Part shown: piece after piece, positions 24,923 to 47,724 of the stretch
How the letters are laid out: each line of letters starts with the position of its first letter
Position numbering within the stretch: the stretch's first letter is position 1
From: Paracoccaceae bacterium
GTDB taxonomy: Bacteria > Pseudomonadota > Alphaproteobacteria > Rhodobacterales > Rhodobacteraceae
NCBI GenBank assembly: GCA_018222585.1
Contig: JAAFAB010000002.1
Coordinates: forward strand, 1 to 64,000
DNA: 64,000 nucleotides
Direction: 5' to 3'
Notes under the pieces: model-generated
Told to the model about the DNA's origin: nothing
Seen by the model: only the letters and a program-made list of their open reading frames with translations
The model's database searches: none
Translations under genes and position numbers: made by a program

Positions 24923-25012
24923 GGAGACGTGGCCGAGTGGTCGAAGGCGCTCCCCTGCTAAGGGAGTAGGCGGGAAACCGTCTCGAGGGTTCGAATCCCT
25001 TCGTCTCCGCCA
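24923..25012 (+). tRNA. tRNA-Ser(GCT)
   Basis: A 90-nt class II tRNA with a long variable arm and an encoded CCA. The acceptor GGAGACG pairs with CGTCTCC; the anticodon loop CTGCTAA gives GCT, reading AGC/AGU. The gene is intact. Its last 23 bases (24990-25012) are the attL core of the island pair to the right. Confidence 0.97.
24990..25012 (+). other. attL core (tRNA-Ser 3' end)
   Basis: The 23 bases from the T-loop to CCA recur exactly at 36632-36654, and the last 16 recur at 47709-47724. Integration at the 3' end of a tRNA regenerates the tRNA at the left end, as seen here. Confidence 0.9.
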
Positions 25013-25092
25013 TTTTGGCCGCCCTTCGGGCCGGAAATGCCATTCAATATCAAGTTGGTAGCTTGCTTTAACCCCGGGGTCGGGGTCAGCTT

Positions 25093-25113
25093 TGCTACAC
25101 AATTTGCTACACA
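25093..25113 (+). repeat. TGCTACACA arm-site pair, island 1 left
   Basis: TGCTACACA at 25093-25101 and 25105-25113, a 12-bp period, 80 bases inside the attL core. The same pair with the same spacing and orientation occurs near the other three island ends. Confidence 0.75.
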
Positions 25114-25152
25114 TTTTGGGTTTCACTCCGCTGCATTCAGTTTTAGCGGACG

Positions 25153-25182
25153 AGCCGCATCCGAAAGGGTGGCGGCTTTTTT
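25153..25182 (+). terminator. strong rho-independent terminator right of tRNA-Ser
   Basis: AGCCGCATCC, a GAAA tetraloop, then GGGT, one bulged G and GCGGCT, followed by six T. It lies inside island 1 and could stop read-through from tRNA-Ser into the island. Confidence 0.8.
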
Positions 25183-25375
25183 GCTGCTCATAGGACTGCG
25201 AGTTTCCAGCAGGTTGCCTTGAACCTCGAACCAGTGGAGGCGCTCTTCATCCTCTCAGGTCTGCGAAGCTGTGTGCAGGCCTTCTCCGGCATCACCCTGG
25301 CGCAGAGCCGTTGGTATCTCCTTCGGCTGTGGACACCGACAGACCGACGAGACCGTGCCCTTGCAGTTGATTGAA

Positions 25376-25405
25376 AAGCCCGTGCAGGTAATCCTGCACG
25401 GGCTT
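25376..25405 (-). terminator. terminator downstream of the 146-residue orphan gene
   Basis: AAGCCCGTGCAGG (25376-25388) pairs with CCTGCACGGGCTT (25393-25405), a perfect 13-bp stem with a four-base loop. It lies 85 bases beyond the stop of the minus-strand gene at 25490. Confidence 0.75.
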
Positions 25406-25489
25406 CCTTGCTGACGGCGCGCCGACATCTGTAGCAGCAGAAGGGTCGTCGACGCGCCGGGCGTGATCACTCAGTGACCACGTCTTGCA

Positions 25490-25930
25490 TCACGATGCTT
25501 TGCGCATCTCCTGCAGAACCTGCTCCGCTCGCAGCATGTCGTGCACAGCAGAAAGGTGCCCGTAGAGCTCCACGATCACCGCCAGGGCTTTTGACAGCTC
25601 ATCTGCGTCCGGCGTGCGGCGCTCACTCGTCCACGCCCTGTCCGTCGAGACGTTTTCCGGGCTGTTGTCGACGAAGGTTTCGACATAGACGCCCTTCTCG
25701 ATTTCGGTCTCCAGGGTGCCGACGAGCTCATGCAGCATCGACAGCACACCTTTGTCGAAGATCTTGCCGACGCGCAGCAGCGCGGCCAACTTGCTCGCCT
25801 CCCGCTTCGGAGCGGGAGGAATGCGATCGAGGACCTCCAGTTCGATGCCGGTGGCTGCGACACGCGCCAGGGGGAAGCACGCAGCAGCCATGCCAGTGAT
25901 TTCGGGACGGGAGTTGATAGACATTTCCAT
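25490..25930 (-). CDS. hypothetical protein of island 1
   Basis: A 146-residue, mostly helical protein without a family that I recognise. The N-terminal third is hydrophobic and alanine-rich (ITGMAAACFPLARVAATGIE). The middle is amphipathic (KLAALLRVGKIFDKGVLSML), and the C-terminus is a probable coiled coil (LYGHLSAVHDMLRAEQVLQE). The start has AAGGAA upstream. It follows the PemK-like gene on the same strand with a gap of 52 bases, so the two are likely one operon; whether it neutralises or accompanies that protein is unknown. Confidence 0.55.
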   Translation of the reverse strand: MEMSINSRPEITGMAAACFPLARVAATGIELEVLDRIPPAPKREASKLAALLRVGKIFDKGVLSMLHELVGTLETEIEKGVYVETFVDNSPENVSTDRAWTSERRTPDADELSKALAVIVELYGHLSAVHDMLRAEQVLQEMRKAS

Positions 25931-25982
25931 TGGTCAGTTCCTTTTCGTTTGGAGGGAGGAGCAGCGGCGAAGGCGCGGTTCC

Positions 25983-26471
25983 CTATCGGAAACCGCGTTC
26001 TTCGCGCGTCTGCTCTTCCCCTCGCATTCGCGTGCGGTAGCCCACGGCGATATCGGCCTCATTTCGGACGCGGGCACGGAGCGCATTCATCCGCTCCATC
26101 AGCGGCGCATCGAGCCGACCGATGACACTCGGCCCCTGGGTGCGCCCATGGAAGCCAGGGTTCTGGACATGTACGATTATGCGCCTCGCACATACGAACC
26201 GCGTGGGCTTCGCGAGGCCAGCGGCGGCGCGCGCCGATGGATGCTTCACGAGAACCTCGTGGCCAGTGTTTGCTCGGGAGCCAGCCGAGGTGCCGTAGGC
26301 AAGCTCGACGAAGCGTTCGCGCCCCCAGCTGAAGGCATCGAACACGACGCACGGGCGTCGCTTTGGAACGTCTGTCTCCATCCCCTGCTCTGCGAGGGGG
26401 AATCGGAACAGCACAACGTCTCCGCGGTCCAGTTGGTCCGCGGCGACTGGCGCTTGGTAAGGATTGTACAT
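25983..26471 (-). CDS. PemK/MazF-like protein
   Basis: About 162 residues from the ATG at 26471, which follows GGAGACC. The opening QLDRGDVVLFRFPLAEQ and the strand KRRPCVVFDAF match the beta-barrel start of PemK/MazF RNA-cleaving toxins (GDIV-x-F-P and K-x-R-P-x-VV patterns). The later part (RFVCARRIIVHVQNPGF, then a helix with LMERMNALRARV) also fits, but the protein is longer than typical MazF (about 110 residues) and no classical antitoxin gene is adjacent. It could be a toxin-like regulator rather than a toxin. Confidence 0.5.
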   Translation of the reverse strand: MYNPYQAPVAADQLDRGDVVLFRFPLAEQGMETDVPKRRPCVVFDAFSWGRERFVELAYGTSAGSRANTGHEVLVKHPSARAAAGLAKPTRFVCARRIIVHVQNPGFHGRTQGPSVIGRLDAPLMERMNALRARVRNEADIAVGYRTRMRGEEQTREERGFR

Positions 26472-27035
26472 GAGGGTCTCCGTTGGCGTGAAAGAACGAC
26501 GCCAGCGCAAACACCTTCAATTTGAGGCATTCGATCAGCTGCGCGTCACAAAACGCGCGCAGCTGATCGAAGGATGGACCGGGAGAGCGCCGAGAGGGTG
26601 TCCCTCTCGGCAAATTTTATGGGGCTATCGCCCCAGTCGCCTCCTGATCAGGTAGAAGCTAACAGCTCCTGTCCCGAAAAAATGAGCTGGGAGATGGCAC
26701 ATCGCGCAATCTAAAAGCCGTTCTTTGGACCTGGTTCACTCGGAGCTCTGGTTGTAAGCAACGCGCTGGAAGGGAAGGCTCACTGAAAGCCTCTGGAACG
26801 ACAGAAACGTACAGAATGCGGAAGCAGCCCTTCGGAACTATTTCCCATGGTCGAATGTCGCTTTCGGCAATCTCTAGGCATTGGCCAATAGCGGCAATGC
26901 TGCGCTGCGGTCCGCCAAAAACGGAAGCTTCTACACTTTACTGTAACTCGAGTTTTTCGGTATCAGGACCGACCCATAGAGCGATCGCACACGAAACTAC
27001 AAATGAATTTCGCGCAAACCTCCGTCGTTCGCCGG
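26472..27035. other. gene-free stretch with a long hairpin
   Basis: About 560 bases between the PemK-like gene and the beta-flower gene. It holds the hairpin at 26531-26570. The remaining sequence shows no ribosome site followed by a recognisable protein, and open frames here are short and of unnatural composition. Confidence 0.5.
26531..26570. repeat. 15-bp perfect inverted repeat upstream of the PemK-like gene
   Basis: TCGATCAGCTGCGCG (26531-26545) pairs with its complement at 26556-26570 around a 10-base loop. It lies 60 bases upstream of the minus-strand start at 26471, so it could be an operator or a leader hairpin of that operon. The stem has no adjacent T-run on the minus strand. Confidence 0.7.
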
Positions 27036-27372: not shown

Positions 27373-29073
27373 TCACTCAACTACCTTTTGGTTTCGCCAC
27401 GCATGCAAAACAGCGGCAACATCCAAGTCGCTGGGATCTTCACTCCACTGCTTTACAAACGAAGCATCATTGCTGTTTGGTGTTGGGTTGGGCCTATCGA
27501 CCTTAATTCGTGTCGGCATGATCATTGAATCTCCGATCAGAATCGCTTCACCCCGTCGCAAGGATGAAAACATTGAAGTAATCCCGCGTACGGAGTCTGG
27601 GAGTAGATTGCGCACATAGGCTTGATCGTCTGGGTTGGATATCCTGAGGCATAGGAAACTTCCACATTGTGATAAAATGGTAGAGGACATTTCACGTGGT
27701 CTCTGACTTATCACCGTTAGGCTAATGCCGTACTTGCGGCCTTCCTTTGCAATCCTTTCTGCGGATTCTCGGGGCGCTTGATCAGCGCTGGCGTCACTCA
27801 AGTAAATATGAGCTTCGTCAGCGAATATTGAGATTGGGTAGCGCTCACCATTCACTCGGCTATACCAATATGAGAAATCGAAAAGGCATCTGAGAGTTAA
27901 CGAAATCAAGGCCCCTCTAACGTCAAAGGGGACAGGGCTGAGGTCAAGGACGATAACTTTCTTTCGATTTGAAATTTCCTCACCAAGGATTTTACGGAAT
28001 AGATCGTCCATGGATCCGCTAGTATTATAGGTCTTCGGCTTAAAGATCAGGTCATAGCGTCGGTCGTTTAGGCGCGATTCCAAACGCATCAACAATCTCG
28101 TGAATTGGCCGTGCAAAGGTCCCTTAATCGGCTTCCCCGAAGAGCCCGCCACCGTCTGAGTATCTAGGTCCCGAAAGTCCTCAATTATTTGATCAAGGTC
28201 GAAATAAACTGGGGTGTCGATTGTGATCTTCTCCAACCCTAGCGCAGCATTCTCTGGGTGACTTTCTTTGGCGGCTTGAAGAAGCTCCTTAAACTTTGCG
28301 TTTTGGTTAGGAGCGCTCGATTCCGCCCTATCAATCATGAGCCCTAAAAGTTCTTCGGCATTCATAAGCCAATACGGCATTTCAATGTCAGTTGCAGAGA
28401 TGACTTCTGCATCCTCTCCGAAGGCTCCAGAATACTCCCCGTGCAGATCCAAAAGCAAAACTGTAGATTGTGGAAATGATGAAATTTTTTGCAGGACGGA
28501 TGCAACCGTCCAAGATTTTCCGCCCCCCGTTTGCCCTAGTATGGCTGCATGGCGCCCAAGGAATGCGTCTAAGTTCATCTTGGCTTCTTGCTCGGGAAGC
28601 AGCGATAGCCGCCCTAAGGAAAAATCCCCTTCAGCGAAGCTCGTATATACTTGGTTGATTGTCTTGGGAAGAACCGCGAAAACCGGAGCGTTTACGGTTG
28701 GTAGGATATTTGTACCACGTTCAAAACTTCCATCCGCACCTAACGTCCCGACCGGGATCGTCACAAGTTGCCGCGTGACTTGTTCAATTAAAAAATCTCC
28801 GTCAACGGCGGCAGCTTTTACCTCCGATGCACCGATTGATGCTTCGCGCATACGTGTCTCTGTTACTAAGCAAAGCAAGCTACCATTCGGCAAAGAAAGT
28901 TCAACAAACGAACCAGGTTGGCCAATCAGAATGCTCTCTGGACCGTCCGGTGTCGAAACATCGACATTCATTTCTTCGGGTACGCCAGTGTTGTTTTCGC
29001 CGTCAAACTCTAAAAGTGAGGCTATGATCTGATCGCCCTTGACTTCGATTACTTTTCCGATTTGGTGCTTCAC
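27373..29073 (-). CDS. herA: HerA-like ATPase of a SIR2-HerA defence system
   Basis: About 566 residues. The preferred start is the GTG at 29073 (VKHQIGKVIEVKGDQ), which follows AAGGAAAAA and gives the usual N-terminal barrel domain; an ATG at 29118 overlaps the SIR2 gene by 34 bases. Walker A is GQTGGGKS (about residues 180-187), Walker B is IFADEAH (about 417-423), followed by the SQRP sensor. HerA hexamers translocate DNA; here they pair with a SIR2 protein to form an anti-phage complex known from established work on SIR2-HerA (Nezha) systems. GC content is visibly lower than the surrounding chromosome, pointing to transfer. Confidence 0.85.
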   Translation of the reverse strand: MKHQIGKVIEVKGDQIIASLLEFDGENNTGVPEEMNVDVSTPDGPESILIGQPGSFVELSLPNGSLLCLVTETRMREASIGASEVKAAAVDGDFLIEQVTRQLVTIPVGTLGADGSFERGTNILPTVNAPVFAVLPKTINQVYTSFAEGDFSLGRLSLLPEQEAKMNLDAFLGRHAAILGQTGGGKSWTVASVLQKISSFPQSTVLLLDLHGEYSGAFGEDAEVISATDIEMPYWLMNAEELLGLMIDRAESSAPNQNAKFKELLQAAKESHPENAALGLEKITIDTPVYFDLDQIIEDFRDLDTQTVAGSSGKPIKGPLHGQFTRLLMRLESRLNDRRYDLIFKPKTYNTSGSMDDLFRKILGEEISNRKKVIVLDLSPVPFDVRGALISLTLRCLFDFSYWYSRVNGERYPISIFADEAHIYLSDASADQAPRESAERIAKEGRKYGISLTVISQRPREMSSTILSQCGSFLCLRISNPDDQAYVRNLLPDSVRGITSMFSSLRRGEAILIGDSMIMPTRIKVDRPNPTPNSNDASFVKQWSEDPSDLDVAAVLHAWRNQKVVE

Positions 29074-29084
29074 AGATTTTTCCT

Positions 29085-30152
29085 TCAGAATAGCTTGACG
29101 AAATCGCCAAATTTCCATGTATTATGTGTCGCCTCAGTTTCACGCCCGCCATTTACTGTTTTGTCGTTGCAGAAGTGCCAAACGTTCGGGCGAGTGCGCG
29201 AGGCGCTAAGTGTCGTCGGCTCATCGTGGCAAAAGTTGAAAAATGAGATTGCGCCAGAGTCAATTTTGGGAGTAACTAAAGTCTCGTTGATGTGGCTATC
29301 GCCAAAGCTAAAGCCCGAAGAAATTAGGTGTTTACACTTGTCTCCCAGCAGTGAGCTCGATAAGCGAAAGAGGCGGTCGTATGGACTGGAAAGCGTCTCG
29401 AGCACCTTCGTCCGTCTTGGAAGCACCATGCATCGAGCCTCTGCCTCATTGATCGCACTGGGCGCCGCTTCGAAAATCCGTTCGTCCTTGCGAAACCAAG
29501 AAACAGAGCCGTGAAGTTTGACAAGGCGAACGGTCAGACCTCCTTCTTGTGAAAAGCGAGTCCCGTTAACCGTTCCTGAAACCAAAGAGAATTCTCGCTC
29601 GGAAAAGCACCGTGTTGTTGCGCCAATGAAACCATTTACTATCTTCAATCCTACTTCGGCGCAAGCATCCTCGAGCAGGAGGTCGTAGTTGGTAGTAAAT
29701 ATCCAGACATTTGTAGCGCGATCGAAAGCTCGAGCCTTTAGTTGTTCGAAAAAACTCACTTGATTGGATATGTCAGGGTGCTCCACACCCAAAATTGCAT
29801 CACGAACGAGTTCTCGAATTCGCTCTTTGAGCACCTTAAATCGATCAATCTGGCTGTTTGTATGGTGCTCAATTACCAGATCTGAAATTTCTTCAATATT
29901 TGGGCTGCCTAGGGCATCGTCATAGGGCTTGCCAAATGCATGAAGTACTTCATCCAATGAGGCGCGTTCGTCGGGCTGCAACGCACTGATGACTTCTTTG
30001 GTCAATCCGGCGACCAAAGGATAGCCGGATTCAAATGAAGTTCCGGCTCCCAATAAGAAGCCCAAGTTATCTATGCTCGTTCGCGTCTTAGGGACAAAAT
30101 CTTCGATGGGCAAGAAGCACCTTAGAATTGAAACCGAGAGAATCAAACACAT
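29085..30152 (-). CDS. SIR2-family NADase-like protein of a SIR2-HerA defence system
   Basis: 355 residues from the ATG at 30152. A TTG at 30116 that would begin at PIEDFVPKTR has AAGG just upstream and may be the true start. The NAD-binding core reads GFLLGAGTSFESGYP (GAGTS at residues 35-39), the ribose-binding motif is FTTNYDLLLE (about 152-161), and KLHGS (about 212-216) supplies the catalytic His214. These are all intact, so NAD hydrolysis on phage infection is the expected activity. herA starts 11 bases after the stop. The gene is AT-rich compared with its surroundings. Confidence 0.88.
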   Translation of the reverse strand: MCLILSVSILRCFLPIEDFVPKTRTSIDNLGFLLGAGTSFESGYPLVAGLTKEVISALQPDERASLDEVLHAFGKPYDDALGSPNIEEISDLVIEHHTNSQIDRFKVLKERIRELVRDAILGVEHPDISNQVSFFEQLKARAFDRATNVWIFTTNYDLLLEDACAEVGLKIVNGFIGATTRCFSEREFSLVSGTVNGTRFSQEGGLTVRLVKLHGSVSWFRKDERIFEAAPSAINEAEARCMVLPRRTKVLETLSSPYDRLFRLSSSLLGDKCKHLISSGFSFGDSHINETLVTPKIDSGAISFFNFCHDEPTTLSASRTRPNVWHFCNDKTVNGGRETEATHNTWKFGDFVKLF

Positions 30153-30945: not shown

Positions 30946-32160
30946 ATGGCAAGCAAGAAGCACCCGGTGGTCCTGCGGTTCGAGGGCATGGACCCGAGCG
31001 ATATCGGTGGCTACGAGGCACACCGCTATCGCAAGGGTGGCGACCTCGGGCACATCGACCGGAACAAGGCGAAGCCCCGCCGCCTGATGGGCTCCGAGAC
31101 CTGGGCCGAAGAAGCCCGGGCCGAGATCGAACTGATGAAGGTCGAAACCTTCGCGGCTGAGCTCGCGGACCTCGATCGGCGGAACCGGCGCAAGGATCTC
31201 GAAAAGCGCCGGATCGAAGGGCCACGGGATCCCTGGCGGTCGTCCCGCCACGGGCCGATGCGCGAACTCATCCTGACCGCCAACAAGGACTGGTTCGAGC
31301 AGACCGAGAGCAGCGACGTGGAGTTCAGCACCTCCCAGGAGGAGCTGTTCGAGGAGCACGCCGTGGCGTGGCTCCGCGAAAACTTCGGCGACGACTTCAT
31401 CCATGCCCGCGCCGATCTCGACGAGCAGGCCTATCACATCCACGCGGTCATCATGCCGCGTGCGACCGTCAGGAAATACGGGACCGAGTGCCCGGTTCTC
31501 CAGCCCTCGGTTCATCCGCTCATCAAGGACTACGAGGCCGCGCAGGACAGCGTCGGCGAGTGGTTCAGTGAAATCGGTCTGGTGCGCGGGAAGCGGCGCA
31601 AGCAGGCCATCCGTGAAGCGCTGAACGACGGCCGCACGCCACCGATCAATCCGCGGCATGTCCGTCCCGCGGAATGGCGCGAGAAGGAAGAAAGACGCCT
31701 CGCCGAGAAGGCCGCTGAAGTCGAGACCCGCGAGCGCGCCGTTGTCGAGCGCGAAGACGACGCGGCATCCGTCTTGGCCTTTGCCGACGCGGTGGCGGCT
31801 GGCGAGATCGACACCGACGGGCGCCCGGCCAAGAGCGCCAAGACAAGCGGGAACCCTCAAATGCAACCTTCGGTGAAGAAGGCAACTCTTGGCTTCGCCG
31901 CCGCGCGCAAGGCCTTCCGGGCCGTTGCAAAGCGGCTCGGTGCGAGGGCCGAAGAGAAGGCACAAGAGCGCATCGCGTCCGAGGTCGCGGAGATCCGGGC
32001 GGCGGATGAAATCATACTCGAGATTGCCCGCGCGTTCCCGCAGGCCCAGCGGGAGCGGATCGCGAAGATCCGGCGCTCGCTGAGCGCGAAAATCATGGCG
32101 CTGGATCCGCGTTCCAGAGAGCGAACAATCCGGTCGCGTTCAGGTCCTGGAGAGCCATGA
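30946..32160 (+). CDS. MobV-type relaxase / plasmid mobilisation protein
   Basis: A 404-residue protein. The start at 30946 has GGAGG directly upstream; an upstream ATG at 30847 has no ribosome site. The N-terminus has RFEGMDPSDIGGYEAHRYRK. The metal-binding motif DLDEQAYHIHAVIMPR (His164 and His166) matches the MobV/Mob_Pre pattern HxDExxPHxH in layout. The C-terminal third is a long Arg/Glu/Ala-rich coiled region (AEKAAEVETRERAVVERE). Relaxases nick oriT and lead DNA transfer. With it, island 1 could be mobilised by a helper conjugation system, since no type IV secretion genes are present. Absence of the usual catalytic Tyr/His1 cannot be judged by eye. Confidence 0.8.
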   Translation: MASKKHPVVLRFEGMDPSDIGGYEAHRYRKGGDLGHIDRNKAKPRRLMGSETWAEEARAEIELMKVETFAAELADLDRRNRRKDLEKRRIEGPRDPWRSSRHGPMRELILTANKDWFEQTESSDVEFSTSQEELFEEHAVAWLRENFGDDFIHARADLDEQAYHIHAVIMPRATVRKYGTECPVLQPSVHPLIKDYEAAQDSVGEWFSEIGLVRGKRRKQAIREALNDGRTPPINPRHVRPAEWREKEERRLAEKAAEVETRERAVVEREDDAASVLAFADAVAAGEIDTDGRPAKSAKTSGNPQMQPSVKKATLGFAAARKAFRAVAKRLGARAEEKAQERIASEVAEIRAADEIILEIARAFPQAQRERIAKIRRSLSAKIMALDPRSRERTIRSRSGPGEP

Positions 32161-34854: not shown

Positions 34855-34915
34855 TCTTCGCCGAGAACTTCTTCCCAGATTCGGCTAACCAGTGAGCTAC
34901 GCCCCGTCAATACTG

Positions 34916-36742: not shown

Positions 36743-36763
36743 TGCTACACAATTTGCCCCACA
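36743..36763 (+). repeat. TGCTACACA arm-site pair, island 2 left
   Basis: TGCTACACA at 36743-36751; the second copy at 36755-36763 is TGCCCCACA. The 12-bp period is kept. It lies 24 bases before the start of the broken integrase. Confidence 0.7.
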
Positions 36764-37978: not shown

Positions 37979-38389
37979 CAAGGCGACCGCGCCCCGTTTT
38001 CTCGCGGCCATGCTGGTCGCCGTTCGATGGGCCTTCAGATATGTCGCGTCGATCATCACGGTCTTCTTTTCGCCGTGCTCGACGGCTAGGCCCACCATCA
38101 TCCGCGCGAAGATCCCTTTCTCGCTCCAGCGCTTCCAGCGGCTGTAGAGCGTCATGTGCGGCCATAGGCATCCGGGACATCTCGCCACCTTAACCCATTG
38201 CGATTGATGAAGGTAATCCCGCTCAAAACCCGCTTGTCATCGACCCGAGGCCGCCCATGCGACTTCGGAAAGAAGGGTTCAGGACGCACCATCTGCGCGT
38301 CGTTCAGTCAAAAAAGATCGCTCGTGTTACCGCTCCGTTTTCGGAGCCCTGAATCACGCAGCGCGGCGGAAATCAATGCATCCTGACCC
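37979..38389 (-). mobile_element. truncated IS5-family copy A
   Basis: About 411 bases that match positions 46614-47022 of copy B with roughly 20 differences. It keeps the right terminal repeat ATCCTGACCC (38380-38389), but the left end was lost at about 37978. The encoded transposase part includes IDATYLKAHRTATSMAARK. It has the same orientation as copy B. Confidence 0.85.
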
Positions 38390-38436
38390 TAATCAGGTGT
38401 CGCACCCGCGAACAATGTGCCCGCTCCGCGCTGTCC

Positions 38437-39765
38437 TTACGAGAGCGCGGCGGCGGGGGGAAGCGTGACCGTCGCCGTCAGTCCGCTTGGCTCGCGGGCG
38501 GACAGGGTCAGCGTCCCCCCGTGGCCGCGAACGACCTCATTCACGATGGAAAGCCCAAGGCCGAAGCCACTGCGCTGCGTCGGGGTGCGCGAGCCATCTG
38601 CCTTGACGAATGGGTCCAGAACTTTTGTGCGCATGTCCTCTGGCAAACCGGGGCCGTTGTCTGAAACCTCGATCCGGGTGGTCCCGTCTGCACCTGCCGC
38701 AAGGGTCACATCCACGATGGTCCCGAATTTCGTGGCATTATCAACAAGGTTGGAGACCGCGCGGGCCAGTGTTCGCGGGCGGCACGCGAGGGCCAGCCGG
38801 GCCGGGCCAGAGTATGTGACCGTAAAGCCAACGTCGGAGAAGTCGGAACAGAGTGTGCGCAGCAGGCTGGGCAAGTCGGTTTTGCGGACGGGTTCGGTCA
38901 GGTTTTCGTAGCGAAGATAGTTCAGCGTTTCGGTGATCATCTCGTTGATCGACCCTATGTCGCGCATCAGCAGGGTTGCGGTATCGGCCGGAACGGTGCG
39001 CTCGACACGAAGCTGCAAGCGCGTGAGCGGTGTGCGAAGGTCATGGCTGACCGCGCGCAACATTGCCGTCCGGTCCTCCAGCAAACCACGTATATGCAGG
39101 CGCATCTCGTTCAGCTTGCGCCCGAGCAGGCGGATTTCCTGCGGTCCGGTTTCAACAAAAACCCGATCTGTCGGATCGGTGTTGCTTTGCGCCTCTGCCG
39201 CCGCCGCCGCGATCCGGGTCAGCGGTCCGGTCACCAGACGCGCGGCATAGATCGACAGCAGGACCACCGGAAGAATGACTACGATCACCTGCAGCATGAT
39301 ATTGACGGTGAAGTCGTTGAACATGTTCGGCACGGGCACGATTGTCGGTGAAAATACCAGCAGCCTGCCACCGAGGTCGACCACGATGCCGAGATCCGCA
39401 CCCTCCTCGCCTGCAACCGTCCAGGCGGGGCGCCCATAGCTGTTCGAGAGGGCGAACAACAGGCGGTCCTGAAAGTCGGAAGTGCCTGCGCTTGGCTGGT
39501 CAAAAGGCTCCGCCCACGACACCAGCAATCCCGATTGGCGTGTGGCGGCCATCACGGCTTCCGCGAATCCAGGAGCGTCATTATTTTCGATCTGATCCGC
39601 CACGAGGTCGATCTGCGCCGCCAGAAGTTCGGCCCGCGAGAGCTGTGTATCCTCGGGAAAGAACGGCTGGGTAAACGCTGCCAGAATGCAGACAAGCAGG
39701 ATCGGTGCCACGGCGAGCGTCACGATCTGAGTGCGTATCGGGCCTTCGAGGAAGCAGCGAAGCAT
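38437..39765 (-). CDS. sensor histidine kinase
   Basis: A 442-residue membrane kinase. TM1 is about residues 15-33 and TM2 about 156-176, enclosing a small periplasmic domain. A HAMP linker is followed by the H-box SHDLRTPLTRLQLRVE with His241, then NLVDNATKFG (N-box), DNGPGLPED (G1) and GFGLGLS (G2). All motifs are intact. The start shares one base with the stop of the response-regulator gene (TGATG). It would phosphorylate that regulator in response to an envelope signal. It is the last gene of the operon that begins with mipA. Confidence 0.92.
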   Translation of the reverse strand: MLRCFLEGPIRTQIVTLAVAPILLVCILAAFTQPFFPEDTQLSRAELLAAQIDLVADQIENNDAPGFAEAVMAATRQSGLLVSWAEPFDQPSAGTSDFQDRLLFALSNSYGRPAWTVAGEEGADLGIVVDLGGRLLVFSPTIVPVPNMFNDFTVNIMLQVIVVILPVVLLSIYAARLVTGPLTRIAAAAAEAQSNTDPTDRVFVETGPQEIRLLGRKLNEMRLHIRGLLEDRTAMLRAVSHDLRTPLTRLQLRVERTVPADTATLLMRDIGSINEMITETLNYLRYENLTEPVRKTDLPSLLRTLCSDFSDVGFTVTYSGPARLALACRPRTLARAVSNLVDNATKFGTIVDVTLAAGADGTTRIEVSDNGPGLPEDMRTKVLDPFVKADGSRTPTQRSGFGLGLSIVNEVVRGHGGTLTLSAREPSGLTATVTLPPAAALS

Positions 39766-40520
39766 CAGATCTTCTCGACATGCGGTGTGAAGATATAGCC
39801 GCCCATCCGCACCGTCTTGATCAGGACCGGCTCGCGCAAGTTTGGCTCGATCTTCTGGCGCACGCGACTGACATGTACGTCCACGCTGCGCTCGACAGGG
39901 CCGGCGACACCCACGTGCGTGAGCGCCAGCAGATCGCGGCGGCTGAGGATGCGCCGGGGGTTCAGGCAGAGGGCCAGCAAGACGTCGAATTCGGCGGATG
40001 TCAGGGACACCTCCGAGCCTTCCGGGTCGAGCAGTTGCCGGGCCAGAGGGTCGATGCGCCAGCCATTGAAGGACATCGCGGTGCGTGCCGGCTGGCTGGC
40101 TTCACCAAATGCCGCACGCCGCAGAAGAGCTTTCACCCGCGCCACCAGCTCGCGCGAGTTGAAGGGCTTGGCGATGTAGTCATCCGCCCCGATCTCGAGC
40201 CCGACGATGCGATCCACATCGTCGCCGAGCGCAGTGACGAGAATGATGGGCGTCGATGAGGTAGCGCGCAGGCGTCGGCAGACACTGAGCCCATCCTCGC
40301 CCGGAAGCATGATGTCCAGCAGGATCATGTCGAAGGTCCCGCTTCGCAAAGCCTCGTCCATTGCAGCCCCCGACCCGGCAATCGTGGTGGCAAAGCCGTG
40401 TTCGACCAGAAGATCGGCGAGCATTCCGGCGATTTCGCGATCATCCTCGACCAGTAGGATTCGGGTTGTTGTATCGAGCGACATTTTCATCAGATCCGGC
40501 GCTTGGGGATGGGCGTTCAT
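39765..40520 (-). CDS. OmpR-family response regulator
   Basis: A 251-residue regulator. The receiver has ILLVEDD near residues 21-27, the phosphoacceptor Asp69 (MILLDIMLPGEDG), and YIAKPF near residue 117. The winged helix has ERSVDVHVSRVRQKIEPN. The long N-terminal tail (MNAHPQAPDLMKMS) may not be translated; an ATG at residue 13 would start closer to the domain. It lies 14 bases after the RND pump gene and overlaps the kinase. The four 10-bp repeats at 45831-45870 are the likely target. Confidence 0.93.
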   Translation of the reverse strand: MNAHPQAPDLMKMSLDTTTRILLVEDDREIAGMLADLLVEHGFATTIAGSGAAMDEALRSGTFDMILLDIMLPGEDGLSVCRRLRATSSTPIILVTALGDDVDRIVGLEIGADDYIAKPFNSRELVARVKALLRRAAFGEASQPARTAMSFNGWRIDPLARQLLDPEGSEVSLTSAEFDVLLALCLNPRRILSRRDLLALTHVGVAGPVERSVDVHVSRVRQKIEPNLREPVLIKTVRMGGYIFTPHVEKI

Positions 40521-40534
40521 GGCATGAAATCGGG

Positions 40535-43500
40535 TTATGTATTGTGTCTTTCGCCGGGACGGGCGGCTGTCACATCGCCATCGTGGCCCGTGACGAAGCG
40601 GCCAAGGACGCGGCGCAGGAAACGGCTCAGGTCATCCATATACGTGAACATCGCGGGTACGAAAACAAGGCTGAGTGCGGTCGAGGTCATCAACCCTCCG
40701 ATCACCGCGATGGCCATGGGCGCACGGAACCCGCTACCTTCGCCCAGTGCAAGAGCCGAGGGCATCATGCCGGCGGACATGGCGATTGTGGTCATCACGA
40801 TCGGCTGAGCTCGTTTCATGCCCGCGTCGATCAGGGCTTGGCGGCGCGGCGTTCCGCGCGCAATTTCCTCGATGGCAAAGTCCACAAGGAGGATTGCATT
40901 CTTGGTGGCGATGCCGATCAGCATGAGAAAACCGATCACCACCGGCAGGCTGATGGCATTTCCGGTAAGCAGCAGGGCCGCCATGGCGCCGCCGATGCTT
41001 AGAGGCAGGGACAGCAGGATTGTGACGGGCTGGAAGATATCCTCGAACAGCAGGATGAGCACGGCCAGCACCAGCATCAGCCCGGCCCCCATGGCCATCA
41101 TGAAGCCTGAGAACACCTCCTGCATCAGTTGTGCATCGCCGAATTCACTCAGACTGACGCCCTGTGGCAGGCTCTGAGCTTCTTCGAGCGCCATGACTGA
41201 CGCCAGCGCCGTACTCAGGGCCACATCGGGGGCAAGATCGGCTTCGATCAGGATCTGGCGCTCACGATTGTACCGCGCGACGTTCGACGGGCCCGTGCCC
41301 GCATGAATATCGGCCACCGCCATCAACGGGACGGCCGCCCCGCTACTGCTGCGCACCAGCAGGGTTTCGAGCGTTGCCAGATCGCGCCTTGCGCTGTCGT
41401 CCAGCCGCACGTTGATATCAATCAGGCGTTCCCCGTCGGAAAACTTTGCCAACTCCTGCGATTGATCGCCAAGCGTTGCGATCCGCAGCACCGAGGCGAT
41501 TTCCGCCGCTGACACCCCGAGCATCGCCGCATCCGCCGGTCGCGGCACGACGCGCAGCTCGGGCCGGTCCATCGCGGCATTGGATTGTACATTCCGCAAC
41601 TCCGGCACCTGCAGGCGGATGGCCGCTTCCAGCGCCTCGGCCGCACGTGCGACCGCGCCGCCGTCCGGGCCTGAGACGTTCAGGGAAAATTCGCGGCCGC
41701 CCTGACCGCTCAAGAAACTCATTTTGAGGTCCGGGATGACGGAAAGATCGGCCTGCGCCGCGCGTTCGAACCCGCGCAGATCAAGGCTGCGCTCGCCAGC
41801 GGGCACAAGTGTGATGATCACGCTGCCCTCGCGCATCTCGCGCTCATTGCCCAGGCTGGCAAAGACAGAAGCCACTGCGGGATGGGCCTGAAGCCGGTCG
41901 CTGATCCGCAACATCGTGGCTTCGGCATCACTCATCGTCACGCCCGGCGCCAACTCTACGTTCAGCACGGACCGGCTTCCGTCTTCGCCGGGCAAGAGGC
42001 CCGATGGCAGCAATGTCGCCATGAAGATTGAAATGGAGAAGATCACGACCCCGCCGGTGATCGTCAGGAAACGCCAGCGCAGCGTCCAGTCGAGCAGCCG
42101 TGAATACCACTGTAGCACAGGCCCCGCTGCGGCTTCGGCATGGCCTGCGTCCTTCATGAAATATGCGGCGATCAAGGGTGTGATCAGGCGCGCGACCAGT
42201 AGGGAGAAAGCCACCGAGACCGCCACGGTGATGCCGAATTGCAGGAAATATTGGCCGGCGATCCCACTCATGAAGCTCACCGGCAGGAAAACCGCGATGA
42301 TCGTGGCCGATGTCGCGACGACTGCCAGCCCGATCTCGCCCGCCGCATCGATCGAGGCCTGGAACGCCGACTTGCCCGTCCGCATGTGGCGTATGATGTT
42401 CTCGATCTCGACAATCGCATCGTCCACCAGCACACCGGTGACCAGCGTCACGGCCAGCAGGCTGATCGTATTCAGTGAAAACCCGAACATGCTCATCAGC
42501 CAGAACGTCGGCAGGATCGAGAGCGGGATGGCGAGCGACGATATGAGGGTGGCGCGGAAATCCTTGAGGAAGATAAGGACAACCACGATCGCCAGAATGG
42601 CACCTTCGATCAGCGTATCCATCGCGGCGGCATAGCTTGCTTCGATATCGCGAACGGATGTGTCGATCAGCTGGATCGAGATATCGTCGTTTTCCGCATC
42701 CAGCGTCTCCAGTGCGTCGGCCACTTGCTGCGCGACGACGGGCGCGGAGAAACCGGGTGCCACGAAGACGCTGAAGGCGGTGACGGGTTGCCCGTTCTGA
42801 AGCGCTATGCTGCGGACCTCGGCCTGCGCATCGGTGACCGTGGCCAGTTCGCTCAGTTGGACATTCCTGCCGCCCGGCAAGATCAGTTCGAGCGCCGCAA
42901 GGGCCGCGATATCGCCTGCGGCCCCGGTCACGCGGAGCAATTGTTCCTGCGATCCGATCTCACTGCGCCCGCCGGCCTGATCCAGTGTGGTGCGCGCCAG
43001 TTGGGCGCTGACCTCTGCGGCGGTGATGCCGAGCGCTCGCAGACGGACCGGGTCGAGGTTCACCCGGATCTCGCGCTCGGCCCCGCCTTCGCGCTGAACA
43101 CGCGCCACGCCGGTCACGCCCTGCAGAGCCCGCGCCACCGTGTTGTCGATCAGCCATGACACCGTCTCGGGCAAAAGTTGGGGGGCATGGACCGCATAGG
43201 TCGCGATGGGATCGCCTTCCGCCTCCACCCGCTGGATCACCGGTTCGTCCACGGCACCGGGCAAATCGCCGCGTATGCTGCTTACGGCATCGCGCACGTC
43301 GTCGACGGCACGGTCCACCGGCACGTCAAGCTCGAACTCCACCGATGTCACGGATTGACCGTCGGTCACGGAGGACGAGACGTTGCGCACTCCCGTAAGG
43401 CCGGACACCGCGGCTTCGACCGGCATCGTCACCTGGGTTTCCATCTCGACAGGGGCCGCGCCCGATTGGGAGACGGCGACCGCCACCAGCGGGATCTCCA

Positions 43501-43624
43501 CCTCGGGCATGCTGGTGATCGGCAGCGCCCTGAACGATACCAGACCCGCGACGACCAGCACTGAGAACAGCACCAGTGACGGCAATGGTTTGTGAATGGC
43601 CCAGGCGGAGATGTTGAAAGACAT
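40535..43624 (-). CDS. RND family efflux pump, inner-membrane subunit
   Basis: A 1029-residue HAE1-type pump with TM1 after AWAIHKPLPSLVLFSVL, the proton-relay motif TGVLVDDAIVEIENI and the late relay Lys in GIATKNAILLVDFAIE. It shares only the general plan with the AcrB-type pump at 6.5 kb; the N-terminal loop motif ITSMPEVEIPLVAVAV is of the heavy-metal/lipid-like HAE1 branch. The adaptor gene overlaps its start by one base (TGATG). It would export a compound from the periplasm or membrane. Confidence 0.93.
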   Translation of the reverse strand: MSFNISAWAIHKPLPSLVLFSVLVVAGLVSFRALPITSMPEVEIPLVAVAVSQSGAAPVEMETQVTMPVEAAVSGLTGVRNVSSSVTDGQSVTSVEFELDVPVDRAVDDVRDAVSSIRGDLPGAVDEPVIQRVEAEGDPIATYAVHAPQLLPETVSWLIDNTVARALQGVTGVARVQREGGAEREIRVNLDPVRLRALGITAAEVSAQLARTTLDQAGGRSEIGSQEQLLRVTGAAGDIAALAALELILPGGRNVQLSELATVTDAQAEVRSIALQNGQPVTAFSVFVAPGFSAPVVAQQVADALETLDAENDDISIQLIDTSVRDIEASYAAAMDTLIEGAILAIVVVLIFLKDFRATLISSLAIPLSILPTFWLMSMFGFSLNTISLLAVTLVTGVLVDDAIVEIENIIRHMRTGKSAFQASIDAAGEIGLAVVATSATIIAVFLPVSFMSGIAGQYFLQFGITVAVSVAFSLLVARLITPLIAAYFMKDAGHAEAAAGPVLQWYSRLLDWTLRWRFLTITGGVVIFSISIFMATLLPSGLLPGEDGSRSVLNVELAPGVTMSDAEATMLRISDRLQAHPAVASVFASLGNEREMREGSVIITLVPAGERSLDLRGFERAAQADLSVIPDLKMSFLSGQGGREFSLNVSGPDGGAVARAAEALEAAIRLQVPELRNVQSNAAMDRPELRVVPRPADAAMLGVSAAEIASVLRIATLGDQSQELAKFSDGERLIDINVRLDDSARRDLATLETLLVRSSSGAAVPLMAVADIHAGTGPSNVARYNRERQILIEADLAPDVALSTALASVMALEEAQSLPQGVSLSEFGDAQLMQEVFSGFMMAMGAGLMLVLAVLILLFEDIFQPVTILLSLPLSIGGAMAALLLTGNAISLPVVIGFLMLIGIATKNAILLVDFAIEEIARGTPRRQALIDAGMKRAQPIVMTTIAMSAGMMPSALALGEGSGFRAPMAIAVIGGLMTSTALSLVFVPAMFTYMDDLSRFLRRVLGRFVTGHDGDVTAARPGERHNT

Positions 43625-44868
43625 CAGAAGCTCCCATCGGGCGAGGCGGACACCAGGGGAACGGGTGAGACGATGCTGCCCGCCTGCAATAGGCCACCAG
43701 CGGCGGCGACCACGATCTCGCCCTGCTCCAGCCCGTCGACGATTTCGATACCGCTTGCGTCGGTCAGTCCCGTCACCACACGCCGCAGTACGATGACGCC
43801 GTCCCGTACCACCTGCACCGACTGACCCTCATCGTCCGACAGAACTGCTGCGCGCGGCACCACGACAGCGATGCGCCTGTCGCTTTGAAAGGTCGCCTGG
43901 GCATAGCTGCCCGTCTTCATCGCGCCGCCCGGCAGCCGGATCCAGGCGGTTCCCATCCGGGTCGCAGGATCGACCGACGGCGAAACCAGCCGGATGTCCC
44001 CCTTAAGTGTGTCGTCATAGCCGGCAATCGCGACGGCGACCGCTTGCCCCTGACGCAGCGAGTGTATCGCGGTTTCCATAACGGACGCCTCCATCTCGAT
44101 CTCACCATCCTTCAGAATTCGGAACAGGGGCTCTGCGTCCGTGCTCACTGTCTGGCCCAACCGGGCGTTGCGCTGCGCAATGATCCCCGGCTCCGGGGCG
44201 CGGACCGTCGTCCGCTCCAGTTGCCACATGAGGTCTTTTCGCACGGCCATCAGGCCACGAAGATCAGCCTCGGCGGCGGTCAGGGCGGCCCTCTGCGCAT
44301 CGACCCGCGCCTGTCCGATCTCGGCAGCCATCTTCCGCTCCTCACCGGTCTGATCGGAAATGCCGCCTCCCGACAGGAGTTCGCGCGCGCGCTGCCATTC
44401 CGCATTGGCGCCGCGTGCGGACGCCTCGGCCTCGGCCAGCAAGGCGCGGGTCTGCGCGATGACGGCTTCGGCCCGGGTCACGTCGGCAGCACTCTGCTCC
44501 AGTTGCAGTTCGATCCGCTGCGGGTCGAGGAGCGCGAGCACCTGGCCCGCCGTCACCCGGTCGCCGACATCGACAAGGTATTGCCGCAGCCTCACGCCAG
44601 AGACCTGCGCGTTGACCAGCACCTCCTCCCGGCCGACAAGGGTTCCACCAGCGACGTAACTGCGGGAGATGGCGCGCCGCTCTGCCATCACGACATGGAC
44701 GGACATGGGCAGGTCCGCCGGACTTTCGAACTGGATGTCTGCAGAGTGGCTGTCAGGGAAGAGGCTGTGGCGGAACACGTACCCGAGCCCGCCAAGCAAG
44801 ATCGTGGCAACCAGCAGCCAATGGCGCAGAGTTTCGAAGCGTCGCTTCGAGGGTGGCCGGTCAGTCAT
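43624..44868 (-). CDS. RND efflux membrane-fusion protein
   Basis: About 414 residues. An ATG at 44880 would add four residues; the one at 44868 begins TDRPPSKRRFETL. The N-terminus is a single membrane helix (RHWLLVATILLGGLGYVF) rather than a cleaved signal. Next come the lipoyl half (VNAQVSGVRLRQYLVDVGDR), a long helical hairpin, and the barrel/MP domains (RTSTLRGD-like strands, GLEQGEIVVAAAG). It links the pump to an outer-membrane partner; the MipA/OmpV-like protein encoded upstream is a possible but unproven one. Confidence 0.9.
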   Translation of the reverse strand: MTDRPPSKRRFETLRHWLLVATILLGGLGYVFRHSLFPDSHSADIQFESPADLPMSVHVVMAERRAISRSYVAGGTLVGREEVLVNAQVSGVRLRQYLVDVGDRVTAGQVLALLDPQRIELQLEQSAADVTRAEAVIAQTRALLAEAEASARGANAEWQRARELLSGGGISDQTGEERKMAAEIGQARVDAQRAALTAAEADLRGLMAVRKDLMWQLERTTVRAPEPGIIAQRNARLGQTVSTDAEPLFRILKDGEIEMEASVMETAIHSLRQGQAVAVAIAGYDDTLKGDIRLVSPSVDPATRMGTAWIRLPGGAMKTGSYAQATFQSDRRIAVVVPRAAVLSDDEGQSVQVVRDGVIVLRRVVTGLTDASGIEIVDGLEQGEIVVAAAGGLLQAGSIVSPVPLVSASPDGSF

Positions 44869-44919
44869 GTGATTCCCCATGAGAAAGCCAGGTGCCGCGC
44901 GGCACCTGGCTTGCTGCGA

Positions 44920-45771
44920 TCAGAACCGGTATCCAAGCAGGACCGATGCGGAAGATTGCATCTCTTCCCGAACGATGGGGCTATCCGCAGCATCGCCGAT
45001 GAGGCTCCCTACCTCGATCTCGCCGCGCAGAATCCAGTTTTCCCGGATCACATAGGTGGCCGATAGCCCCAGATCGACGCGCTTGAACCCGGATTCGGCC
45101 TCGTACTGCGCCAGTCCGGAAGCCGCTGACTGGGCTGCAGTCACCCCGAAATAGTTTTGCATGTGGTCTTCATCAGCCCAGTTGGCTGACAGGTTCGCGG
45201 CGAGCAGGACATTACCGACCTTGCGCGTGTACTGGGCCCCGAGCCGCCCGACCATGCCATCACTGTCACCGAGCGTTCTGTCGAAGTTCATGTACAGGTC
45301 CAATGGTCCAAGGGCATAGCCGATGCCGAGCCCGAGGGTCGCGCCGCCGTCAACATCTCCCAGACCGGCCAAATAATCGGAGTCGTCTTCCTCGCGCCCG
45401 GGGTCGTACCCGATCTGCGTGCTCAGGCTGAGAGGCCCGGTCGTCAGGAGGTCAACATTCAGACCGCCAAGGTCGAATGTTACCCGATCTCCGTAGCTGA
45501 TCGAGAAGAACGGCAGCGCGGTGGTCTCGAAATCTTCCGCGCCCTCGAACTCTGGTGCCACTCTCGCGCCAATGCCCAGGACGAACTCCCAGTTGCTTCT
45601 ACCGCCGCCACTGCCAATCACGGGGTCCTGAACCGGTGCATCGAATGTCCCGTAGCTCAGTTCGGCGTCCTGTCCGTGTGCGCGGCTTGCCGACAGCAGA
45701 AAGGGGGTAAGCAGCGCCACGAGTGCGAGGGGTGCGAGCGGTACGCGATCTGAACTTGTGTGGGTGGTCAT
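44920..45771 (-). CDS. MipA/OmpV family outer-membrane protein
   Basis: About 283 residues from the ATG at 45771, after AGGAGAG. It has a signal peptide (LAPLALVALLTPFLLSASRA, cut near AHG) and a 12-strand-type barrel with alternating patterns (WEFVLGIGARVAPEFEGAED; ASVLLGYRF at the end). MipA/OmpV proteins are outer-membrane scaffolds or porins. It is the first gene of the operon with the adaptor, pump, regulator and kinase. A terminal Phe fits outer-membrane insertion. Confidence 0.9.
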   Translation of the reverse strand: MTTHTSSDRVPLAPLALVALLTPFLLSASRAHGQDAELSYGTFDAPVQDPVIGSGGGRSNWEFVLGIGARVAPEFEGAEDFETTALPFFSISYGDRVTFDLGGLNVDLLTTGPLSLSTQIGYDPGREEDDSDYLAGLGDVDGGATLGLGIGYALGPLDLYMNFDRTLGDSDGMVGRLGAQYTRKVGNVLLAANLSANWADEDHMQNYFGVTAAQSAASGLAQYEAESGFKRVDLGLSATYVIRENWILRGEIEVGSLIGDAADSPIVREEMQSSASVLLGYRF

Positions 45772-46192
45772 GGGTGGGAGCTCTCCTGGAAGCGTTGGGT
45801 GTAACCATCCGCCGCACATTGCCTCGGGCGATGTTTCACAGGGTTTGGAAATGTTTAGAAATGTTGCGCCGCGCAGACTGGCAGGTCTCGGCAATCAGAA
45901 TTGTCTTTCTGGGTCTGTCTCGACTGCGCAGGGGCCGATGTCGGCACATTGTCGCGCCGGCGGAACGCAATGGTTGTAAACACCTTAAGTCGCTGCTCTC
46001 AGAACCTGCGGCTTCGGTTGTTTCCGGTATCAGGGGCGCAGGCGAGTGGCATGCCCGCAGGCACGGCGGTCCCAAGCCGCTTGCCTGGCGCAAAGCCTTC
46101 CGGAAATGATCAGGAAAAGCTGGGGATCTGGGCTGTCGAGATCCCCGGCAGCCATATCGGTGCATCACCTGTCCTGTCCGGACATCTGTGTA
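45772..46192. promoter_or_regulatory. promoter region of the mipA-RND operon
   Basis: About 420 bases between the mipA start and the IS5 copy. The part near mipA contains the phased repeats; the remainder (45870-46190) shows no ribosome site with a recognisable protein and probably is a remnant displaced by the insertion sequence. Confidence 0.5.
45831..45870. promoter_or_regulatory. four 10-bp phased repeats, probable OmpR-type operator
   Basis: ATGTTTCACA, GGGTTTGGAA, ATGTTTAGAA and ATGTTGCGCC follow one another without gaps. OmpR-type dimers bind direct repeats spaced by about one helical turn, so this is a good candidate site for the regulator of the same operon. It lies 60-100 bases upstream of the mipA start. 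Confidence 0.6.
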
Positions 46193-47022
46193 GGGTCAGG
46201 ATTCATAACCAATAGATGACGATAGCGGCGAGGTTGATGGCCGAGAGGAATACCTTGGGACAGCGGTCATAGTGGGTTGCCACGCGCCTCCAGCCCTTGA
46301 GCCTTCCGAGCATGATCTCGATGCGGTTGCGCCGCTTTTATCGGGGCTTGTCGTATTTGACCGGGGTCTTTCGCTGCCTTCGCTCCGGGATGCAGCCGCG
46401 TATCCCTTTGTCTTGCAACGCTTCCCTGAACCAGTCGGCGTCATAGCCGCGACCCCGAGCAACCATTTGACGTTTTGCAGGCCGCTGAGTAGAGCCCGTG
46501 CGCCAATGTAGTCGCTCACCTGTCCGGCGGTGACGAACAGGCCGATCGGTCTTCCCTGGCTGTCGCAGACGGCATGCAGCTTGGTGTTCATGCCACCCTT
46601 GGTTCGGCCGGTCAGGCGACCGCGCCCTCTTTTCTCGCGGCCATGCTGGTCGCCGTTCGATGGGCCTTCAGATATGTCGCGTCGATCATCACGGTCTTCT
46701 TTTCGCCGTGCTCGACGGCTAGGCCCACCATCATCCGCGCGAAGATCCCTTTCTCGCTCCAGCGATTCCAGCGGCTGTAGAGCGTCATGTCCGGCCATAG
46801 GCATCCGGGGCATCTCGCCACCTTAACCCATTGCGATTGATGAAGGTAATCCCGCTCACAACCCGCTTGAAATCGACCCGAGGTCGACCATGCGACTTCG
46901 GAAAGAAGGGTTTAAGACGCACCATCTGCGCGTCGTTCAGCCAGAAAAGATCGCTCGTGTTACCGCTCCGTTTTCGGAGCCCTGACTCACGCAGTGCGGC
47001 GGAAATGAATGCATCCTGACCC
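46193..47022 (-). mobile_element. IS5-family insertion sequence, copy B, with degraded transposase
   Basis: 830 bases with matched ends GGGTCAGGAT (46193-46202) and ATCCTGACCC (47013-47022), flanked by TA on both sides as a target duplication. The transposase on the minus strand reads through MNDAQMVRPEPFF, IDATYLKAHRTATSMAARK and LTGRTKGGMNTKLHAVCDSQ, then TAGQVSDYIGARALLSG. Lesions are a frame change near YGRT/HMTLY (which could be a programmed shift in this IS group), another after LLG, and a stop codon in the RYKRRNRIEIM block. It is inactive unless the shifts are natural. Confidence 0.85.
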
Positions 47023-47035
47023 TAGGTCTGACACC

Positions 47036-47264
47036 AAGGAACAATCCCAGCGGCGGCAAGGAAGGGCTGGGCACGATTACGAAGATGGGGGATCAGTACC
47101 TCCGAGAGCTTCTCGTGGTCGGTATGACTTCCCGCGCCATCCAGGTGAAGGTCCGACAGGACAAGGGGGACCTGTGGCTGAGTCAACTGCCGGAGAGAAA
47201 GCCGTTCCGACTGTCACGCATCGCCATGGTCAACAAGGCGGCCAGTATCATATGGTCGTCCTGA
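47036..47264 (+). mobile_element. IS110-family transposase C-terminal fragment
   Basis: Encodes NPSGGKEGLGTITKMGDQYL, LRELLVVGMTS and then a lysine-arginine-rich tail with NKAASIIWSS before TGA. This is the end of an IS110/IS902-type transposase. The N-terminal DEDD domain is missing. The following 47265-47510 looks like IS110-type non-coding tail, without a gene. Confidence 0.75.
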
Positions 47265-47537
47265 CACAGGGGGAGGCCTAGACGCCAAAACCTGCCTGAT
47301 GCGGCAAGCACTGCACAGAAAATAGCAAGACCGGCGAGATGATGGAGACACCCACAGCCGTCATCCCGGGAGACCCCGCCGAATGTCCGGGGCGTAATAG
47401 CCCGCAAAGCCGACAGGGATCCGGGACGCGGAAGCCATCAGGGCCAGCGGCCGAAACGCCGAGCAATCAGGCTCGACACACGACCGCTTCTGAATGGGTA
47501 TAATAAGATCTTTCCCGCTTGCTATGCAGTTCGCGAC

Positions 47538-47580
47538 GGTCCTACCTCAAACCGTCCGGGGAACGGTTTGAGGTAGGACC
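47538..47580. repeat. 18-bp perfect inverted repeat
   Basis: GGTCCTACCTCAAACCGT (47538-47555) pairs with ACGGTTTGAGGTAGGACC (47563-47580) around a seven-base loop. It lies 37 bases left of the island-2 arm sites. There is no T-run. It could be a dyad for protein binding, a transcription stop or an IS end remnant. Confidence 0.8.
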
Positions 47581-47616
47581 GGGCGGAGCCTCTATCTAGG
47601 CAAGTATGTTTGATCT

Positions 47617-47637
47617 TGCTACACATATTGCTACACA
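47617..47637 (+). repeat. TGCTACACA arm-site pair, island 2 right
   Basis: TGCTACACA at 47617-47625 and 47629-47637, 12-bp period, about 70 bases left of the last att core. Confidence 0.75.
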
Positions 47638-47708
47638 AAATGAAACACATGGACAGGACATCGCTCTGCAATATATAGGAAATATCATTTGGAGCTAGGC
47701 GCTTGGCG

Positions 47709-47724
47709 CCCTTCGTCTCCGCCA
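47709..47724 (+). other. attR core of the island pair
   Basis: The last 16 bases of the tRNA-Ser gene (CCCTTCGTCTCCGCCA) again, without the T-loop part found at 36632. It marks the right end of island 2. Confidence 0.85.

Follow-up and report, generated by a model that had tools for sequence, protein, structure and literature searches.

The first 64,000 nucleotides of contig JAAFAB010000002.1 (assembly GCA_018222585.1) from the marine Alphaproteobacterium Paracoccaceae bacterium, here called the window, contain a 22.7-kb region that very probably formed by tandem accretion of two integrative elements on the 3' end of the same tRNA-Ser(GCT) gene. The target gene (24923–25012, + strand) is intact according to ARAGORN and Rfam (RF00005, 59.8 bits). 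Its 16-base 3' end, CCCTTCGTCTCCGCCA, is present in the window as three exact copies (starting at 24997, 36639 and 47709), all in direct orientation. The left and middle copies have 23 bases in common and the right copy has 16, giving three attachment (att) cores on the + strand at 24990–25012 (the tRNA end; attL of unit A), 36632–36654 (attR of A and attL of unit B) and 47709–47724 (attR of B). By core spacing, unit A is 11,642 bp and unit B 11,070 bp long. By chance 0.06 matches to CCCTTCGTCTCCGCCA would be expected with up to two mismatches, and none of 100 shuffles reached three copies; with at most one mismatch, these three are the only copies in the entire 5.15-Mb genome. An initial annotation, made from the sequence alone, had proposed both the division into two units by copies of 23, 23 and 16 bases and a left copy that keeps the tRNA whole, and its coordinates and spacings were confirmed.

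Just inside all four unit ends are tandem direct repeats of approximately TTGCTACACA, with a 12-bp period, which had not been reported in that annotation. All are on the + strand and are located, for unit A, at 25092–25113 (left end, 80 bp from the core end) and 36533–36554 (right end, 121 bp from the core end) and, for unit B, at 36742–36763 (left end, degenerate) and 47616–47649 (right end, 108 bp from the core end). Out of 20, they score 20, 19, 17 and 20 from left to right. Apart from overlapping frames of these arrays, no pair in the window scores 15 or higher, and a score of 16 or more was found in none of 20 one-strand mononucleotide shuffles of the window. A chance origin is ruled out by these shuffles together with the empty reversed-pattern controls given below. 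An alternative in which the repeats are merely a promoter element of the integrase gene (int) is disfavoured because they also sit at the end far from int. We read the TTGCTACACA tandem as a predicted integrase arm site.

The two units carry integrases of different clades, referred to here as class A and class B. IntA (35112–36491, − strand), at the tRNA-distal end of unit A, is an intact tyrosine integrase with a DUF6538 domain (42.7 bits against a cut-off of 27). IntB (36787–37788, + strand), at the tRNA-proximal end of unit B, is a remnant with an in-frame stop at 37270 and without its C-terminal part; its similarity ends at 37788, which corresponds to residue 330 of 422 in a relative. A frameshift, as a reading of two open reading frames (ORFs) would imply, was rejected, as both pieces share one frame with the stop between them. 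IntA is 93% identical at the protein level to the integrase of Pseudooceanicola marinus LMG 23705. The IntB pieces share 48% and 59% identity with a Roseicitreum plasmid integrase and at most 66% with other members of that clade (67% across a single piece of 55 residues), compared with 34–36% with IntA; between IntA and the Roseicitreum integrase, identity is 36%. A plasmid search with IntA returned five records, all below 60% identity.

IntA residues R291, K332, R391, H414 and Y425, which we take to be catalytic, are identical in all 16 aligned sequences; IntB does not have the part corresponding to R391, H414 and Y425. The identification of IntA as a recombinase rests on a match of its family profile to the solved Tn1549 integrase (E 8e-7) and on its predicted fold. 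In the predicted structure (mean pLDDT, the predicted local distance difference test, 77; pTM, the predicted template modelling score, 0.46) the core domains match the integrases of Tn1549 and lambda (Foldseek E about 1e-6 to 2e-4; identity about 12–17%). They are preceded at residues 5–68 by three predicted strands, with a short helix among them, and then a long helix.

The IntA and IntB genes stand back to back at the middle core, as previously described. This arrangement had been taken as evidence for recombination between the units, which is not supported. In other genomes int lies at the tRNA-distal end in class A and at the proximal end in class B, so the back-to-back integrases need no exchange between units, and the middle core copy is what simple accretion would leave.

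Serial insertion at one tRNA, also part of the initial annotation, is well supported by an empty site, a single-island site, the fixed geometry of the ends and tandems in two other genomes. The native downstream flank in the window (47725–47792, + strand) consists of 26 bases followed by a terminator-like hairpin at 47751. An empty site with those 26 bases between the tRNA CCA and the hairpin had been predicted, and in a genome of the same genus (G016) the tRNA is contiguous with this flank, the CCA being followed by 26 bases, as counted by eye, and then the hairpin. The left flank of this site is 80.5% identical to that of the window over 7.1 kb up to the tRNA end and the right flank 82% identical over 84 bp. 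P. marinus (G021, NZ_PGTC01000022.1) has a single related island of 10.1 kb at this tRNA, and its right flank is shared with the window (75.6% over 160 bp). Compared with unit A, this island has the same ends, a left module with 72% DNA identity (25416–26614) and relaxase and int regions with 89–91% DNA identity, while the cargo between the shared modules differs. Sequence after this tRNA in 29 loci from other genomes was mostly unrelated, as expected of a hot spot.

Class-B units are found in comparable positions. One sits directly at tRNA-Ser (G218); in another genome (G284) a 17.4-kb unit separates tRNA-Ser(CGA) from a class-B unit of 9.4 kb that has both its ends. In a third (G022), an 11.6-kb unit of a different kind comes after tRNA-Ser(GCT), and behind it is a class-B left end with its integrase, the right end not being found within the stretch read. 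The first unit of G022 (L019/L111) begins just after the tRNA with a different tandem repeat, GTTCCCACACTTGTTCCCACG, which is perhaps the arm code of another integrase family. Two further loci (G100 and G401) were traced upstream, with no tRNA within the stretch read.

The distribution of the arm repeat was surveyed in 394 genomes of the family and 390 of the order, drawn evenly from larger groups and each including that of the window. The repeat with at most two mismatches was present in 24 of the former and its exact form in 10 of the latter, and the reversed-pattern controls were found in no genome of either set. From the listed places, several of which yielded no locus, 39 motif loci (three on viral contigs) were examined, and removal of three that overlapped the same array left 36 outside the window. 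A tRNA 3' end, a related integrase or both lie alongside 29 of these. In twenty, a tRNA 3' end precedes the repeat by 77–102 bp (18 Ser, with anticodon GCT, TGA, CGA or GGA; one Arg; one Phe), and 18 have a relative of IntA or IntB no more than 200 bp away.

The distances between arm repeat and core are likewise conserved. In class A the left arm is 78–80 bp from the core end in 9 of 10 islands; in the other (L088) the second repeat copy is missing and the distance was not scored. Nine of the ten islands have their right arm 120–121 bp ahead of the core end; L086 gives 108 as computed and 121 after a by-hand 13-bp correction of the core end. In class B the right arm distance is 108 bp in all three units. 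One class-A island (L085) has the usual right end with a left end at no recognised tRNA, perhaps a secondary insertion site. In Kandeliimicrobium roseum (L097) a partial class-A integrase lies near a tRNA-Ser that is itself followed by an arm repeat, in an unusual arrangement.

The backbone of unit A consists of a left module, a first cargo slot, a MobV-type relaxase, a second cargo slot and int. The conserved left-module genes are on the − strand at 25490–25930 (146 amino acids; fam5 in related islands) and 25983–26510; the P. marinus homologue of the latter shows a weak resemblance to PemK (21.3 bits; cut-off 23.1). Slot 1 encodes a HerA ATPase (27373–29118, − strand; PADLOC HerA, 552 bits; also Pfam HerA) adjacent to a SIR2-domain protein (29085–30152, − strand, start uncertain; PADLOC SIR2, 540 bits), and these family-level matches make the two a SIR2-HerA candidate defence pair. 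The relaxase (30946–32160, + strand) matches a solved plasmid recombination enzyme (E 2e-4), its HxH motif is invariant in 10 sequences, and Pfam Mob_Pre matches all 10 relaxases at E 0.001. Pfam, PADLOC and NCBIfam gave no match for the 504-residue ORF in slot 2 (33291–34805, − strand), and in related islands, too, several proteins encoded in this slot are unmatched. No type IV secretion system family scored above its cut-off among nine unit-A proteins scanned, a set that did not include smaller ORFs; for HerA, a TrwB-like match reached 19.1 bits (cut-off 20.5). Having its own integrase and relaxase, att sites at both ends and a known empty site, but no recognised conjugation pore, unit A appears to be an intact integrative and mobilizable element (IME), for which excision and transfer are predicted.

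Class-A islands keep the backbone and swap the cargo. The counts use named genes only; the ORFs picked in the islands include shadow ORFs. The MobV-type relaxase is kept in 10 of 11 islands; in the other (G006) no relative of it was found. Domain matches identify defence candidates in nine of the 11: besides SIR2-HerA in the window, these are GmrSD_N/NsnA-like (P. marinus), an N6-methyltransferase (G030), LRR-TIR (L088), NACHT (L089; Pfam only, no PADLOC match), DRT3a/b (L092, Wenxinia), AIPR/AbiU-like (L086), helicase-DUF2290 (L085) and AriA/AriB-like together with a slot-2 TIR protein (L095, Limimaricola). The integrase range of the Limimaricola island holds a stop codon and this integrase may be broken. 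The two islands without a candidate are L094 (5.6 kb, slot-2 ORF unmatched) and G006 (20 kb, cargo not scanned).

Unit A also contains a tRNA-like piece (34870–34993, − strand), which ARAGORN calls tRNA-Cys with anticodon ACA and which scores 30.1 bits in Rfam (cut-off 29). Its 3' half, which ends in CCA, comes first; about 9 bases further on lies GGGGCGTAGCTC, which resembles a 5' half and whose acceptor strand would pair with the 3' half, so that the order of the halves is permuted. It is probably a decayed tRNA. No parent was found for 34916–34993, with partial matches of 22–31 bases in 5 of 21 genomes and at most 35% coverage in phages.

Unit B carries efflux genes on the − strand: a two-component system of kinase and regulator (38437–40520; Pfam), a resistance-nodulation-division (RND) efflux permease with a membrane-fusion protein (40535–44880; Pfam and NCBIfam) and a MipA-family outer membrane protein (44920–45894; Pfam). 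To the right of this cargo is an IS5-like insertion sequence (IS) (46191–47024, − strand; its transposase ORF scores 55 bits where the family cut-off is 110) and to the left a partial copy of it (37981–38391) with 96% identity to the right copy over 300 bp. The two same-orientation copies (37981–47024) thus flank the two-component, RND and MipA genes in a composite-transposon-like arrangement. No relaxase was found among 10 protein stretches scanned in unit B. The integrase is broken and attL and attR, with both cores and arm repeats at both ends, are kept, so unit B looks like a decayed cis-mobilizable element (CIME), which its neighbour may be able to move. Near its right end is a perfect 19-bp inverted repeat with a 7-base loop (47537–47581).

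To the right of the third core lies a P4-type integrase gene of which the 5' part is left (47861–48364, + strand; Pfam Arm-DNA-bind_3), with 72–75% DNA identity to integrase genes adjoining tRNA-Ser in three genomes (G003, G008 and G026), one of which (G008) has a full-length copy. This third integrase is probably the remnant of an older island.

Based on these observations, a class-B DUF6538 island, unit B, would have inserted at the tRNA-Ser end and then decayed, its integrase gaining a stop and losing its C-terminal part and IS copies coming to bracket the efflux cargo. Unit A would then have inserted at the tRNA end, most likely after B, and made the tRNA whole again. In the predicted mechanism, the N-terminal DUF6538 domain of IntA contacts the tandem TTGCTACACA arms and the enzyme recombines the cores, excising A and perhaps also B or A and B together, since B keeps similar arm sites.

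The role given to DUF6538 is consistent with a wider comparison of DUF6538 loci, of which 31 were collected (30 from a class-wide draw and one from the genome of the window) and 26 used, five being dropped as truncated. A tandem repeat of 12–13 bp (at least 10 of 12 matches) was found in the 130 bp before the domain in 10 of the 26 loci compared with 17 of 468 control stretches from these loci (Fisher p 1e-7), the test stretch having been picked after a first look at the same loci; the other 16 loci were below the threshold. The enrichment suggests, as a hypothesis, that arm arrays often precede int in the DUF6538 family and are bound by DUF6538. Tentatively, and with slightly less than even confidence, we extend this to propose that DUF6538 is the arm-binding domain of a large family of tyrosine integrases; that Roseobacter-group clades only about 36% identical share a tandem TTGCTACACA arm code with a 12-bp period; that intact class-A islands can thus move decayed class-B neighbours in trans; and that tRNA-Ser ends are a common dock for exchangeable defence cargo. 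If this is true, the arm code common to both clades would allow a class-A island to excise and move its class-B neighbours. No description of DUF6538 together with an integrase, or of an arm-binding role for it, was found in the literature licensed through PubMed Central (PMC).

Other histories of the 22.7 kb were considered. Units A and B could have come as one composite (A-att-B) in a single insertion, which would fit the core and arm sites kept by B; in the available excerpts of PMC5704250, tandems of a CIME and an integrative and conjugative element (ICE) were observed to transfer together. However, a relative of A stands alone at this site in P. marinus, and class-B units adjoin tRNA-Ser directly in G218 and follow unrelated units in G022 and G284, so arrival as a composite is unlikely. 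It is scarcely credible that recombination or inversion between att copies broke up one original island, leaving the integrases back to back. The two genes do diverge from the middle copy, but the low identity of the IntB pieces to IntA and the opposite int position of their clade in other genomes do not fit an origin from one island, nor do the direct orientation of all three cores and the right-end spacing of each unit, which is that of its own clade.

The nature of unit A itself can also be questioned. Its small size, defence cargo and tRNA target would suit a phage satellite (phage-inducible chromosomal island-like) not mobilized by conjugation; many phage satellites carry defence systems, according to the available excerpts of PMC11389934. 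In addition, three integrase relatives (40–43% identity) are on viral contigs, and the exact arm repeat is present in three viral contigs, in one of them 80 bp after a tRNA-Ser. By contrast, no packaging or phage gene was detected among the nine unit-A proteins in the Pfam scan (PHROGs was not searched), the relaxase is kept in nearly all class-A islands, and the Wenxinia relaxase, used as a single query, gave no relative in viral contigs. We consider a phage satellite very unlikely, though less so than a split island.

Tandem accretion of an IME beside a decayed island accounts best for the locus, and several points weigh against parts of it. The data show the anatomy of the locus, the empty site and the island family, whereas we infer arm binding, excision, mobilization and which unit inserted first; B could have come second, into the middle copy. 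The arm-site reading of the repeats draws on their position and conservation. Seven of the 36 arm places have neither tRNA nor integrase nearby; five of these have core-like sequence 101–111 bp downstream, by a loose criterion with no control, and two have no tRNA, integrase or core-like sequence. Islands of this family are rare at this tRNA, the exact arm repeat following it in only one (P. marinus) of the 29 loci from other genomes. The HxxR motif is usual in such integrases, and in the alignment IntA has Gly where this motif has His; IntA has no Pfam Phage_integrase match at E 0.01 and matches no NCBIfam model, and no excisionase gene was identified. The relaxase of the window scores 25.1 bits for Mob_Pre, just under the cut-off of 25.5, and 40 bits for NCBIfam MobV, well under the cut-off of 100.

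The core and the TTGCTACACA repeats at fixed distances from it form a readable end signal that delimits such islands in draft genomes, and this signal reveals the swap of phage-defence candidates while integrase and relaxase stay. It also offers a direct test of the role of DUF6538 and of whether one integrase mobilizes the remains of another island. Among the matches listed in the PMC-licensed literature, neither this island family nor its arm repeat was found described, and with its shared end signal the family looks like an undescribed one. As tandem stacking is already well described, the end signal is the useful novelty.

Accretion of the ICESt1 type was reportedly described by Pavlovic in 2004. 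The tandem arrangement is a known phenomenon, since both IME-CIME accretion (PMC5704250) and stacked ssrA islands (PMC3146451) are described in the available excerpts of these papers. In the former, as here, accretion proceeds in matching steps, namely insertion at a gene end, decay that keeps attL and attR, and arrival of a second element in tandem with an integrase of similar specificity. The locus here differs in its Roseobacter-group host, its tRNA-Ser target and its two DUF6538 clades with one arm repeat, and excision is predicted. The excerpts of the same paper describe IME_Sag2603_tRNAlys and a decayed ICE, which, like units A and B, are a mobilizable element and a decayed one in tandem at a tRNA 3' end with distant tyrosine integrases; that pair reportedly has very different att sites, whereas cores and arm repeats are shared here. 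The adjacent genes and strong PADLOC family matches of the SIR2-HerA pair are those of the known system, present here as interchangeable island cargo. IntA shares the tyrosine-recombinase fold with the Tn1549 and lambda integrases, with predicted N-terminal strands and helix before the core domains, and differs in that this N-terminal domain is the uncharacterised Pfam family DUF6538 and in its low sequence identity to them. In the Dehalococcoides ssrA islands, as excerpted from PMC3146451, tandem islands likewise lie between copies of an RNA-gene 3' end and some are without integration genes; there a serine recombinase acts at the transfer-messenger RNA (tmRNA) gene, and here a tyrosine recombinase is paired with tRNA-Ser.

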